From assembly GCF_025200715.1 (NCBI RefSeq), contig NZ_CP104144.1, positions 1,116,001 to 1,180,000 of the forward strand: 64,000 nucleotides of DNA. Reading direction: 5' to 3'. Each line of letters starts with the position of its first letter. The stretch's first letter is position 1. Origin of the DNA: Rhizobium sullae. Lineage in GTDB: Bacteria > Pseudomonadota > Alphaproteobacteria > Rhizobiales > Rhizobiaceae. This document shows positions 1-31,606 of the stretch, piece after piece. A program made the position numbers and the translations under genes. Under the pieces are notes generated by a model, which did no database searches, was not told the DNA's origin, and saw only the letters and a list, made by a program, of their open reading frames with translations.

Positions 1-642
1 CCGGTTCACCACGCCTTCGACACCCCGGACGCTTTCGGCGGCCACCGTCGCCGCCTCGCGCTCAAGCTCTGTCTCGACCTCTCCCTTCAAGGTGACGACG
101 CCGTTGGAGACGGCGGTCTGGACCGTTGGGGGCAGGATTTCCAGCTCTGCTTCCAGACGGCAGCGTACGGCGGTTGCAAGGGCGTCGTCTCCGGAAGCAG
201 TGCAGTCCTTCGGAACGTCAAGGAGTGCACGCATCAAGTCGCGACGGCTGATCATTCCGACAAGCCTGCCGCTCTCGACGACCGGCACGTGCTTGATGTC
301 GTGGACCTGCAGAAGTTCGGCGAGCTGGCTCGCAGTGGCGGTCGGGGTGGCGCTCACAACGGGTGTCGACATGACGTCCTTGATGCGCCAGCTCCTGGTC
401 TTCACATAGTTTGCCAGAGCGTCCTCCCGGTCGCGCGTATGCGGTACGGCCCGCCTCGCCCAGGACGACGCCACACGCCGAAGCAGGTCCCCCTCGCTGA
501 CGATGCCAGTCAGCCGTCCTTCGGCGTCTACGACTGGAATTGCTCCGATCCTGCTGGCGTTGACGAGTTCGATCGCCTCTCTGACGTTGTGGCCCTCGTC
601 GATCGTCGTCACCGGGGTCGTCATAATGTCTTTGGCCAGCAT
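1..642 (-). CDS. CBS-domain pair plus BON-domain protein (3' end beyond window)
   Basis: My translation of the minus strand begins MLAKDIMTTPVTTID, preceded by the strong ribosome site GGAGG (spacing about 7). Two CBS motifs are visible: residues about 1-60, containing IPVVDAEGRLTGIVSEGDLL, and about 95-150, containing HVPVVESGRLVGMISRRDLM. A BON-like stretch (LPPTVQTAVSNGVVTLKGEV) follows and runs off the window edge, so the C-terminus is missing. CBS pairs usually bind adenine nucleotides, and BON domains are linked to membranes or envelope stress. CBS-BON proteins are common next to Usp and Hsp20 genes in low-oxygen clusters, and a FixK-type box lies 56 bp upstream. Confidence in the domains is high; the physiological role is inferred. 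Confidence 0.85.
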   Translation of the reverse strand, partial: MLAKDIMTTPVTTIDEGHNVREAIELVNASRIGAIPVVDAEGRLTGIVSEGDLLRRVASSWARRAVPHTRDREDALANYVKTRSWRIKDVMSTPVVSATPTATASQLAELLQVHDIKHVPVVESGRLVGMISRRDLMRALLDVPKDCTASGDDALATAVRCRLEAELEILPPTVQTAVSNGVVTLKGEVETELEREAATVAAESVRGVEGVVNR

Positions 643-697
643 CGCCTTGCCTCCTTGGTTGGCAGTGCGATTAGAGTTGGGATTCGAAAGGAGCGCT

Positions 698-711
698 TTG
701 ACCCTGATCAA
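698..711. promoter_or_regulatory. FixK/FNR box before CBS-BON gene
   Basis: TTGAC-CCTG-ATCAA is a full match to the TTGAY-N4-RTCAA anaerobox. It lies 56 bp upstream of the CBS-BON start at 642, a normal activator distance. Confidence 0.75.
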
Positions 712-741
712 TCAAAGCGCACGCACGTCCTGAGGAGGTCT

Positions 742-1127
742 TCAGCCGTCGGTCATGCGCCTCAGGACATTCGTCTTCAATAGAACTGATGAGCAAGCAC
801 GCCAAGGACATGCGCGGCGATGATGGCCCGCCGGATGATCTTCGGCACCTCGGCGTGTACCTCTCCTGCGCCGTCGTAACCGGGGTAGAACGCGGCGACG
901 CCTGTCACCGGCAGCGCGACAAGGAGGAAATAGGGTGTTGCATGAGCGGCTTTGGCCATGAGCCCCAAGATCCCTGGTTCTTCCGGCGGGACCGAAGGAG
1001 CTCCCTGGACGAAACGGAGGACGAGGCGGACGCCGATCAACATCAGTATTGCGATGCCGACGTACACGTGGATGTAGGCGCTTGCCAATTGTTCATCTGC
1101 GGCAGTACCCCCACGGCCCGATGCCAC
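742..1127 (-). pseudogene. Cytochrome b561-type protein, truncated and frameshifted
   Basis: The minus strand encodes about 116 residues with three hydrophobic segments. They resemble the C-terminal three-quarters of bacterial di-haem cytochrome b561 (IHVYVGIAILMLIGVRLVLR; HATPYFLLVALPVTGVAAFY; HVLGVLAHQ). The first transmembrane helix with its haem-ligand histidine is absent, and only a GTG start without a ribosome site is available. The family's typical C-terminal tail is present but in another frame: after HVLGVLAHQ the reading jumps to VLLKTNVLRRMTDG, ending at 742. N-terminal loss plus a C-terminal frameshift indicates a decaying gene. A sequencing error could explain the frameshift but not the missing N-terminus. 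Confidence 0.7.
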
Positions 1128-1353
1128 TCGCTCTCTGCTTGATTGGACCCGGGCCCTCTACGGGACGATACTGACGCATTCCTGAACCGTGTATTCGATG
1201 CACTGGCGTGCCGGAGATACGGAACTGGCGCGGGGCCGGGACCTCTAGGGAGCATTGGCGAGATCGGGCACTCGCGCGATCGCCTCGAGAGCGAAATGAT
1301 ACGTGTCCAGCGTCGTTGTCGTACCCACCTCCACGAATCCGCGCACGTGGATG

Positions 1354-28962: not shown

Positions 28963-29922
28963 ATGCACCAATATTCCGCGCATGCGGATCACGTCTATAC
29001 GTGCGCGCAGCAGAATTCCGCTGCAGCAAGTTCTCCAATCGTGGCTTCCTGGCGGCGCTGCATGACCATGCATCAGCTTGCCCCGGAAGACAAACGCACG
29101 CCTGTGCGGCTGACTGATTTGGAATTCCAGCTTGCACGCGAGCAATCGGATCAATTGATCAAGGACGCGACGGACGAACTCGACCGGCTTTTCTCGACGG
29201 TCGGGAGGGCCGGTTGCTGCCTGCTGCTGACGGATCGCAATGGCATCGCGCTGGAGCGGCGCGGCTCTGCCGGTGACGACAAGGAGTTTGGCGATCTCGG
29301 CCTCTGGACCGGATCTGTCTGGACTGAAGCAAGCATTGGCACAAACGGCATCGGCACGGCGCTTGCAGACGAGCGTGCCGTCGCAATTTTCCGCGACCAG
29401 CATTTCTTCTGCTCCAATATCCGTCTCAGTTGCACGACTGCGCCGATCCGCGACCATCGCGGTCAACTGGCTGCCGCGCTCGATATTTCCACTTGCCGTG
29501 ACGACGTCAATGAAATGACGCTGTCGATCCTGTCACAGGCGGTCCGCGACGCTGCTACCCGCATCGAACTCAATATCTTCCGCAGTGCCTTTGCCGGTGC
29601 ACGCTTCCTGATGGTGCCATCGGGCGCGAATTCTGCAGCGGCATTGCTAGCGGTCGACAAGCATGATCTTGTGCTCGGCGCGACGCGCGCGGCCCGGCTG
29701 GCGCTCAAGCTGGATGACCGGCGGATCGCCGCAGGTGTTCCAGCGGCCGATGCGCTTCATGAAAGCGGTGCGGCTACCGGCGACGTTCTCTTGGAAGCAG
29801 AACGTGCAGCCCTGTTGCGTGCGCTGACCCGGACCAACGGCAATGTTTCGCAGGCCGCGATCAGTCTTGGCATGAGCCGCGCCACACTTCATCGGAAGAT
29901 GAAGAGGCTCAACCTTCACTGA
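28963..29922 (+). CDS. AcoR-like GAF-Fis transcriptional regulator lacking AAA+ domain
   Basis: 319 residues from MHQYSAHADHVYTC after GTGGGAGGAG. The N-terminal half resembles the GAF sensor part of AcoR (VASWRRC, CLLLTDRNGIALERRG, WTEASIGTNGIGTAL). The C-terminus is a Fis-type helix-turn-helix (EAERAALLRALTRTNGNVSQ then AISLGMSRATLHRKMKRL). The central sigma-54 AAA+ ATPase (GAFTGA, Walker motifs) is absent, so it cannot remodel sigma-54 polymerase and should act as a conventional activator or repressor. It sits between two matching palindromes and directly upstream of an aldehyde dehydrogenase gene, its likely target. Confidence 0.85.
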   Translation: MHQYSAHADHVYTCAQQNSAAASSPIVASWRRCMTMHQLAPEDKRTPVRLTDLEFQLAREQSDQLIKDATDELDRLFSTVGRAGCCLLLTDRNGIALERRGSAGDDKEFGDLGLWTGSVWTEASIGTNGIGTALADERAVAIFRDQHFFCSNIRLSCTTAPIRDHRGQLAAALDISTCRDDVNEMTLSILSQAVRDAATRIELNIFRSAFAGARFLMVPSGANSAAALLAVDKHDLVLGATRAARLALKLDDRRIAAGVPAADALHESGAATGDVLLEAERAALLRALTRTNGNVSQAAISLGMSRATLHRKMKRLNLH

Positions 29923-29945
29923 GCCTTCCCTCCAAAGAGTAATCC

Positions 29946-29963
29946 TGTCGCAGCGTTGCGACA
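29946..29963. promoter_or_regulatory. Palindromic operator before aldehyde dehydrogenase
   Basis: TGTCGCA-GCGT-TGCGACA, the same 18-bp architecture as the palindrome at 28846-28869, 105 bp before the aldehyde dehydrogenase start. Confidence 0.75.
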
Positions 29964-30068
29964 CTGTGCACTGCAGCAATGCGCCGGGAGCCTGTTGCAA
30001 TCGATAAAACACGCGCAGACTCCTTCCATCGGTTCGCTCCTGAACCTGGCTCATCTTGGGAGGATGAC

Positions 30069-31577
30069 ATGCTGCATCAAAAGATCGTTGAATCACCATT
30101 CAAGCTGAAATACGGCAACTATATTGGCGGCGAATGGCGCGAGCCCATCGGCGGCAGGTATTTCGACAACGTCACGCCGGTCACGGGCGGCAAGCTCTGC
30201 GAAATCCCGCGCTCCGACGAAAAGGATATCAATGCGGCGCTGGATGCCGCCCACGCTGCTAAGGGTCAATGGGCTAGAACTTCGGCTACCGAACGCTCAA
30301 ACATTCTGATGAAGATCGCGCAGCGCATGGAGGACAAGCTCGAGTTGCTTGCCCAGGCGGAAACGTGGGACAACGGCAAGCCGATCCGCGAAACGATGGC
30401 TGCCGACATCCCGCTTGCCGTGGATCACTTCCGTTATTTTGCCGCCTGCATCCGCGCGCAGGAAGGCTCGATCGGCGAGGTCGATCACGATACCATCGCT
30501 TATCATTTCCATGAGCCGCTTGGCGTCGTCGGCCAGATCATCCCGTGGAATTTCCCGATCCTGATGGCCGCCTGGAAGCTCGCTCCGGCGCTTGCCGCAG
30601 GCAATTGCGTCGTGATCAAGCCGGCCGAACAAACGCCCGCCTCGCTTCTCGTCTGGGCCGAACTCGTCGGCGATCTGCTGCCGCCAGGAGTGCTCAACAT
30701 CGTCAATGGTTTTGGCCTGGAGGCCGGAAAGCCGCTCGCCACCAGCCCGCGCATCGCCAAGATCGCCTTCACCGGCGAGACCTCGACCGGCCGGCTGATC
30801 ATGCAATATGCCAGCCAGAACCTCATTCCGGTCACGCTCGAACTCGGCGGCAAGTCGCCGAACATCTTCTTTGCCGACGTCATGGCCGATGATGACGATT
30901 TCCTCGACAAGGCGCTCGAAGGCTTTGCGATGTTCGCCCTGAACCAGGGCGAGGTCTGCACCTGCCCGAGCCGCGCCCTCATTCAGGAATCGATCTACGA
31001 CCGCTTCATGGAAAAGGCGCTCAAGCGCGTCGAAGCGATCAAACAGGGCAATCCACTCGACAGTGCAACGATGATCGGTGCACAGGCCTCGGCGGAGCAA
31101 CTCGAAAAGATCCTTGCGTATCTCGATATCGGCAAGCAGGAAGGCGCCGAGGTGTTGACTGGCGGCACCCAAAACGATCTCGGCGGCGAGTTGGCCAATG
31201 GCTTTTATGTCAAGCCGACGATCTTCAAGGGTCACAACAAGATGCGCGTCTTCCAGGAGGAGATTTTCGGCCCTGTGGTATCTGTCACGACCTTCAAGGA
31301 CGAGGAGGAAGCGCTGGAGATCGCCAACGACACACTCTACGGCCTCGGTGCAGGAGTCTGGACGCGTGACGGAAACCGCGCCTACCGCTTCGGCCGCGAA
31401 ATCCAGGCCGGCCGCGTCTGGACGAATTGCTACCACGCCTATCCGGCGCATGCGGCATTCGGCGGCTACAAGCAGTCCGGCATCGGCCGCGAGACGCACA
31501 AGATGATGCTCGACCACTACCAGCAGACCAAGAACATGCTGGTGAGCTACAGCCCGAAGGCACTCGGCTTCTTTTGA
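30069..31577 (+). CDS. NAD-dependent aldehyde dehydrogenase (AldB/AcoD-like)
   Basis: 502 residues from [26 protein letters not shown] six bases upstream fixes the start. Typical motifs: [20 protein letters not shown], the general-base Glu in LELGGKSP, and the catalytic Cys in [14 protein letters not shown]-terminal [11 protein letters not shown]. It oxidises aldehydes, likely acetaldehyde or a similar short-chain substrate, to acids in the cytosol. The preceding GAF-Fis regulator and the following DUF779 gene are the usual companions of acetaldehyde/ethanol-type dehydrogenases. Confidence 0.93.
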
Positions 31578-31606
31578 GAACCGGATTGATCACAAATGGC
31601 TACCTT

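Follow-up and report, generated by a model that had tools for sequence, protein, structure and literature searches.

We have analysed 64,000 nucleotides of the Rhizobium sullae genome (C2:1116001-1180000; the whole of this stretch is hereafter called the window), lying on the 2.76-Mb C2 replicon of a four-contig 7.6-Mb assembly; the nearest DNA and protein relatives, among those listed, are from Rhizobium. Judged from its sequence, the window is very probably part of an island of low-oxygen genes under the control of FixK, and this island is best read as a rhizobial counterpart of the lxa locus of Burkholderia.

The first line of evidence is the density of FixK/FNR boxes, defined here as exact matches to TTGA-N6-TCAA. 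The window contains 18, as against a mean of 0.97 and a maximum of 4 in 100 dinucleotide shuffles of the window; the whole genome holds 133, of which 115 lie outside the window, and the background is therefore approximately one per 64 kb. A preliminary description of this DNA had proposed a box island spanning positions 1 to 31600 and called for a scan of the replicon. An exact-box scan of 464 kb of C2 found 36 boxes inside 122.5 kb (C2:1104105-1226610) and only six in the remainder. The island is thus real, and all eight boxes originally listed are present (11656 being corrected to 11655), but the proposed range is too narrow and two boxes within it, at 9160 and 20093, had been missed; boxes continue to 58597 in the window, and further ones lie on both flanks. 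By midpoint, 27 of the 36 island boxes are intergenic, where the intergenic share of the island sequence is 13.7%, and 30 precede a predicted start by no more than 300 bp. The island centres on fixNOQP-fixGHIS, fixK, hybrid fixL, fxkR, nor and nosZ.

The second line of evidence is the presence of the regulators themselves. The regulatory and respiratory features are given below in window coordinates; identities are to proteins of R. johnstonii pRL9, and PMC7888657, like the other papers cited by accession, is cited from excerpts.

34038-34766, minus strand: FxkR-type response regulator; 64% identity to the protein in the fxkR9 position of pRL9
34946-34959: box between fxkR and the Crp/FNR gene, exact match
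35085-35678, plus strand: Crp/FNR-family regulator (PF13545, PF00027)
35725-40248, minus strand: fixS, fixI, fixH and fixG (PF03597, PF00122/PF00403, PF05751, PF11614)
40293-40306: box before fixG, exact match
40602-43987, minus strand: fixP, fixQ, fixO and fixN, encoding cbb3 oxidase (PF14715, PF05545, PF02433, PF00115)
44081-44094: box between fixN and fixK, exact match
44172-44187, plus strand: exact K-box GTTACA-N4-GTTACA, 88 bp before fixK (motif from PMC7888657)
44276-45007, plus strand: FixK without an N-terminal Cys cluster; 59% identity to the protein in the fixK9a position of pRL9, with FixK2 (4i2o) as its top match in the structure bank
45036-46961, plus strand: hybrid FixL (PAS-kinase-receiver); 71% identity to the protein in the hfixL9 position of pRL9

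Boxes therefore lie upstream of genes more often than chance allows, and FixK is accompanied by a hybrid FixL, FxkR and a K-box, as a FixK regulon would predict. From these sites, genes, regulators and statistics we infer binding, induction and function along the following lines. As oxygen falls, the hybrid FixL would act via FxkR, which would in turn act on the K-box at 44172 to raise FixK; a second FixK is encoded at C2:1110310 (61% identical to fixK9b over 202 residues). FixK dimers would then bind the boxes and switch on the genes behind them, namely those for the cbb3 oxidase (fixNOQP/GHIS), the denitrification genes and a maintenance set. The latter would serve energy sensing (CBS and Usp proteins), protein protection (Hsp20, plus GroEL just outside the window) and fermentative carbon and acetate handling (AckA, an alcohol dehydrogenase (ADH) and a Pat-like acyl-CoA ligase with a GNAT domain), and would also include ion and metal pumps and a kinase combining APH-like and AAA33 domains. 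The proposed FixK control of the boxed genes is well supported by sites and regulators residing in the same island.

A number of observations weigh against this reading, or at least against its full extent. In contrast to pRL9, the surroundings of fxkR yielded no K-box even with two mismatches allowed, and the Crp/FNR gene beside fxkR (35085) is not fixK9b-like; with only 23% identity, it was rejected as fixK9b. The midpoints of nine of the 36 island boxes fall inside predicted coding sequence. Moreover, the box cannot distinguish FixK from FnrN or NnrR, and those close to nor and nos may be targets of a nitric oxide regulator. FnrN was dropped as the regulator, as neither the four genome places found with PF00325 nor the four found with a FixK query (two FixK-like places within the island and two that are distant) showed an FNR carrying an N-terminal Cys cluster; FnrN may still play this part, however, because the Crp/FNR gene at 35085 escaped both searches, and the resulting list of the Crp/FNR family is incomplete. 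In favour of the reading, boxes in 32 alphaproteobacterial loci around homologues of the kinase lie more often near genes from 11 panel families (25 of 90) than near other open reading frames (ORFs; 20 of 367), a count that dropped ORFs overlapping longer ones and those of <450 bases without a panel match. This excess, however, is due to Usp (8/13), kinase (5/27), ADH, Crp/FNR and PhaC-like genes; a box is nearby for only 2 of 17 Pat-like genes and for none of 11 genes of the two ATPase families. Finally, among 60 genomes of the genus, the kinase occurs in 13, the Pat-like protein in four (all with the kinase), the P2 ATPase in two and FixN in 34; the gene set is therefore patchy, and the stress cargo is accessory.

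Pfam scanning covered 60 of the 62 predicted window proteins and bears out the gene types previously placed behind boxes, that is, CBS-BON, MBL (beta-CASP), AckA, Hsp20, Pat-like CoA ligase/GNAT, APH-AAA33, P2 ATPase and ADH. The stress and metabolic features are as follows.

1-642, minus strand: CBS-CBS-BON protein (PF00571 twice, PF04972)
698-711: FixK/FNR box before the CBS-BON gene, exact match, centre 63 bp from the start
1354-2565, minus strand: acetate/propionate kinase AckA (PF00871)
2880-4514, minus strand: MBL-fold beta-CASP hydrolase (PF10996, PF00753)
4566-4579: box common to the MBL and triple-BON genes, 59 bp from one start and 100 bp from the other
4673-5617, plus strand: triple-BON protein (PF04972 three times)
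8145-8798, minus strand: Usp-domain protein (PF00582), no exact box upstream
9160-9173: previously overlooked box before the P1B ATPase gene, 104 bp to its start
9271-11169, plus strand: P1B heavy-metal P-type ATPase (TIGR01525, above cut-off)
11655-11668: box before a small ORF, exact match
11668-12039, plus strand: ORF of 123 residues without a Pfam or NCBIfam match, start probably at 11725
12521-13348, minus strand: Usp-like protein of 275 residues (one PF00582 match, in the C-terminal part)
13508-13521: box lying between the genes for Usp and Hsp20, 111 bp from the start of hsp20 and 167 bp from that of Usp
13626-14132, plus strand: Hsp20 (PF00011)
14477-19330, minus strand: three genes, for an ABC-2 permease, an ABC ATPase/permease (RbbA type) and an HlyD adaptor (Pfam; RbbA name from the homologous pRL9 order)
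20093-20106: previously overlooked box before a 123-residue ORF (19662-20033), upstream of the HlyD/RbbA-type/ABC genes
20103-22862, minus strand: Pat-like NDP-forming acyl-CoA ligase with GNAT domain (PF13549, PF13607, PF00583)
22977-22990: box before the Pat-like gene, exact match
23047-24594, minus strand: APH-like plus AAA33 kinase (PF13671, PF01636)
24703-24716: box before the kinase gene, exact match
24740-27412, minus strand: P2-type cation ATPase (PF00122, PF00689; nearest NCBIfam TIGR01522, below cut-off)
27579-27592: box before the P2 ATPase gene, exact match
27625-28608, minus strand: alcohol dehydrogenase, zinc-type family (PF08240)
28751-28764: box before the ADH gene, exact match

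The later start of the first small ORF is the likelier because the box at 11655 overlaps the first ATG (11668). Both this ORF and that at 19662-20033 encode 123 residues, are boxed and lack Pfam and NCBIfam matches; possibly, they are small low-oxygen proteins. Ten flanking genes were likewise analysed with Pfam. Those behind boxes encode a second Hsp20, a GroEL-type chaperonin, a receiver/beta-CASP fusion, and two Usp and two additional CBS-BON proteins; a nosZ-type nitrous oxide reductase lies further to the right of the window. In the fusion (C2:1102828-1104003; L017 6828-8003), which also lies behind a box, a shortened receiver domain precedes beta-CASP and RMMBL domains: its first 90 residues are FxkR-like, an odd union of response-regulator and RNA-hydrolase-like parts. 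Within the window, a COX1-family oxidase and, next to it, a NorQ-type AAA protein were confirmed, and a hemerythrin-like protein (59127-59579) lies beside the nor-type genes. The same 14-base box, TTGATCTATGTCAA, occurs both at 44081, between fixN and fixK, and at 58597, where it precedes a gene (58202-58507) without a Pfam match.

The DosR regulon of mycobacteria comprises CBS, Hsp20, Usp, P2 ATPase and APH/AAA kinase families; DosR itself is a response regulator of the NarL type, accompanied by GAF kinases, and the CBS protein Hrp1 consists of two CBS domains only. The window had been said to mirror this regulon. The same families are indeed there, but in the 60 of 62 proteins scanned there is no nitroreductase, no PFK and no NarL-type regulator with a GAF kinase (the search for a DosRS-type pair being limited to the window), and the corresponding likeness of the lxa locus has already been published. 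A GAF protein at 29062 carries a Fis helix-turn-helix. Likeness to Hrp1 and to the kinase-linked mycobacterial P2 ATPases likewise stands at family level. The CBS-BON protein differs from Hrp1 by its added BON domain and matches it (Rv2626c) at E=7e-8, as the 30th of 51 structure-bank matches, which is no special likeness; for the P2 ATPase, the first structure-bank matches are Listeria lmo0841 and eukaryotic Ca2+ pumps, and it falls in another branch than the mycobacterial L151 and L157. The 275-residue Usp-like protein has one Pfam Usp match, not two, and only 3loq was found for it in the structure bank at E<=0.001. Additionally, the kinase and Pat-like proteins split by phylum (see below). 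On the evidence of sequence, then, the window resembles the DosR regulon in its families, not in orthologues; the parallel is real at that level and partly known already. A DosR-box consensus, at up to five mismatches, gave 21 matches in 80 mostly actinobacterial kinase loci, 18 in 60 proteobacterial ones and 10 in 40 controls; loci and controls not being separated with this consensus, the count was rejected as a discriminator.

The kinase served as the anchor for comparative tests. Among 398 Pseudomonadota genomes drawn, 132 had a kinase match, and 60 loci of up to 20 kb each were hand-picked, favouring full-length matches on longer contigs and mostly leaving out family f38 (three taken). The other 80 loci came from a Rhodococcus-led alignment and are mostly from Actinomycetota, although at least four are not (L185, L192, L195 and L196). 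As controls, 40 stretches were taken from genomes among the 60 and 20 from genomes behind the 80; the Fisher tests ignore shared ancestry. In Proteobacteria, significant kinase neighbours are Usp (18 of 60 loci versus 1 of 40 controls), Pat-like (17 versus 0), ADH (13 versus 1), Crp/FNR (12 versus 0) and P1 ATPase (8 versus 0), and exact boxes number 77 in 1181 kb near the kinase versus 5 in 796 kb of control; CBS (7 versus 2), Hsp20 (4 versus 0), P2 ATPase (4 versus 0) and BON (3 versus 0) do not reach significance. In the mostly actinobacterial set, Usp (60 of 80 versus 0 of 20), CBS (24 versus 0), Hsp20 (16 versus 0), GAF kinase (25 versus 1) and NarL regulator (30 versus 3) are enriched, and ADH (14 versus 2), Pat-like (10 versus 1), P2 ATPase (9 versus 0) and PFK (5 versus 1) are not significantly so. 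When 20 of these loci are matched to the controls, the counts are Usp 15, CBS 5 and Hsp20 3 (versus 0), GAF kinase 6 and NarL regulator 14, the Hsp20 count then falling short of significance. The enrichment of GAF kinase, NarL regulator, PFK, PpsA and DUF1918 is partly circular, as the panel was drawn in part from a Rhodococcus locus already seen.

At least three of the seven core families occur together in 13 of 60 and 20 of 80 loci, and in none of the 40 and 20 controls, although Usp is the only family significantly enriched in both sets. The co-occurrence that the preliminary description proposed checking in other genomes is therefore borne out for several families clustered near the kinase, and across both sets for Usp alone. 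Neither AckA (1 of 60 loci versus 1 of 40 controls) nor MBL nor BON is enriched; the panel members ABC2, CydA, MBL, PTA_ech and HEMERY yielded nothing in the sampled loci, and the RbbA query matched ABC ATPases in general (19 of 60 versus 8 of 40). In the alphaproteobacterial loci (L058-L087, L116 and L117), the Pat-like CoA-ligase/GNAT protein is as frequent a kinase neighbour as Usp, each being present in 17 of 32. At least one core family is nearby in 23 of 32 kinase loci within the class and in 5 of 28 outside it; with the other 23 of these 28 lacking any core neighbour, and with four of the 13 kinase-bearing genus genomes giving no FixN match at E<=1e-150, the kinase was rejected as a strict low-oxygen marker.

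How the families came to be assembled was approached through quick trees, in which the kinase tree took a subset of the 80 loci and the others left out rows of less than half length. The kinase tree (106 rows) separates 66 proteobacterial from 37 actinobacterial and allied rows, each at 100*, with three Desulfobacterales and Caldimicrobium rows on the actinobacterial side under midpoint rooting; the window and Rhodococcus kinases are 28% identical. Mapped onto this tree, the presence of at least two core families in the neighbourhood requires 19 changes. The Pat-like tree (five actinobacterial and 17 proteobacterial rows) splits by phylum in one change, the ADH tree shows three phylum changes and is flagged for long branches, and the P2 ATPase tree is mixed: mycobacterial L151 and L157 group with proteobacterial L066, L070 and L109, and the window P2 ATPase is placed, at long distance, among other actinobacterial enzymes (L166, L170 and L188).

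These data bear on several explanations of the DosR parallel. That a dormancy module was passed between phyla as a block, its regulator being swapped later, would accord with the 104 plasmid records in which the kinase is found, with the mixed P2 ATPase group and the ADH changes, and with the Rhodococcus plasmid pDK1 (L003 1834-29678), which carries a compact DosR-like set: response regulator, GAF kinase, Usps, CBS proteins, Hsp20, PFK, PEP synthase, acetate-CoA ligase and APH/AAA kinase. However, the kinase and Pat-like trees split by phylum, at long branches, making recent transfer of such a block into the island unlikely; the window P2 ATPase lies outside the mixed group, and the ADH changes carry the long-branch caveat. 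Given also the low identity of the kinases, we consider block transfer improbable. It is similarly hard to credit that ordinary stress genes came together next to the fix cluster by chance, and that the resemblance to DosR exists only in the reader's perception. Usp, CBS, Hsp20 and P-type ATPases certainly belong to common families, the full set is rare in the genus, and the lack of core neighbours outside the class and of any enrichment for AckA, MBL and BON would fit; the clustering of three or more core families, and the counts for Usp in both sets, would not.

Convergence, in which FixK and DosR each drew in these families separately to meet the demands of survival at low oxygen, may be correct, although we would stop somewhat short of calling it probable. 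It accounts for the kinase-linked enrichment of Usp, CBS and Hsp20 on the mostly actinobacterial side and of Usp, Pat-like and ADH in Proteobacteria, for the phylum split and the 19 changes, and for the position of the Paraburkholderia kinase L007, which groups with L106 (100*) and, like L109, lies among kinases of loci without core families. On the other hand, the two sets share significance for Usp only, the families are very common, and the window is without several DosR hallmarks. Moreover, a linkage predating the phyla and followed by repeated loss would yield the same pattern. The trees speak against recent transfer but do not separate parallel recruitment from old shared linkage, and the convergent assembly originally suggested is not proven. 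A more ambitious proposal is that of one cross-phylum low-oxygen guild, centred on the APH/AAA33 kinase together with Usp and, by lineage, CBS, Hsp20, Pat-like, ADH and P-type ATPases, which would stay linked while one regulator replaces another, with FixK/FNR serving Alphaproteobacteria and part of the Burkholderiales and a DosRS-type system serving Actinomycetota. We advance this tentatively and think it rather unlikely, going no higher because only Usp passes in both sets; a search of open-licence literature only, weak in part, found no report linking the neighbourhood of this kinase in both phyla. If the guild were true, the kinase would be a core, so far unstudied, effector of hypoxic survival.

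Returning to the proposed FixK-controlled island, it is of a known kind and well supported by sequence. In R. johnstonii 3841, the hFixL-FxkR-FixK/FnrN path has been established experimentally (PMC7888657), and pRL9 shares with the island the order fixN-fixK-hfixL-pseudoazurin, with regulators 59-71% identical and fxkR nearby; on pRL9, these genes are followed by ADH, Usp, APH/AAA kinase, BON and HlyD/RbbA/ABC genes, types that the window also holds, with 11 boxes in 41.5 kb. The two differ in that no P2 ATPase or Pat-like gene is listed near the pRL9 kinase, and in that fixK9b stands beside fxkR9, whereas the matching FixK of R. sullae is 40 kb away; R. johnstonii also has FnrN (PMC7888657), whereas no Cys-cluster FNR turned up here in non-exhaustive genome searches. 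In R. leguminosarum, an anaerobox-bearing hsp20 is induced approximately 50-fold at low oxygen in an FnrN-dependent manner (PMC11784457). In Bradyrhizobium diazoefficiens at 0.5% O2, the induced proteins include Usp, CBS, Hsp20, AdhP, HlyD, GroEL and cbb3 proteins as well as PFK, PEP synthase and nitroreductase, some being given as putative direct FixK2 targets (PMC6515984); this FixLJ-FixK2 set shares the first seven of these protein types with the island, but the gene numbers in the excerpts point to several genomic places.

A further parallel is the lxa locus of Burkholderia cenocepacia, for which both a likeness to DosR and a possible tie to FixLJ/FixK have been stated (PMC6127331); with this likeness and the FixK path both published, each half of the preliminary description has a precedent. 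In the window, as among the lxa proteins given in the excerpts, Usp, Hsp20, BON, zinc ADH and MBL genes are clustered in one low-oxygen locus, and a FixK/Anr-like regulator has been proposed for lxa. The lxa locus is betaproteobacterial and lists PFK and a nitro-compound reductase, neither of which was found in the window; the excerpts describe no adjacency to fixNOQP, which the window set adjoins. Rhizobium offers a safe organism for learning the roles of the APH/AAA33 kinase, CBS-BON and Usp proteins under low oxygen. A single testable question joins the FixK island of rhizobia to the lxa locus of Burkholderia and the dormancy regulon of mycobacteria: what brings certain shared families together with low-oxygen regulators in distant bacteria.

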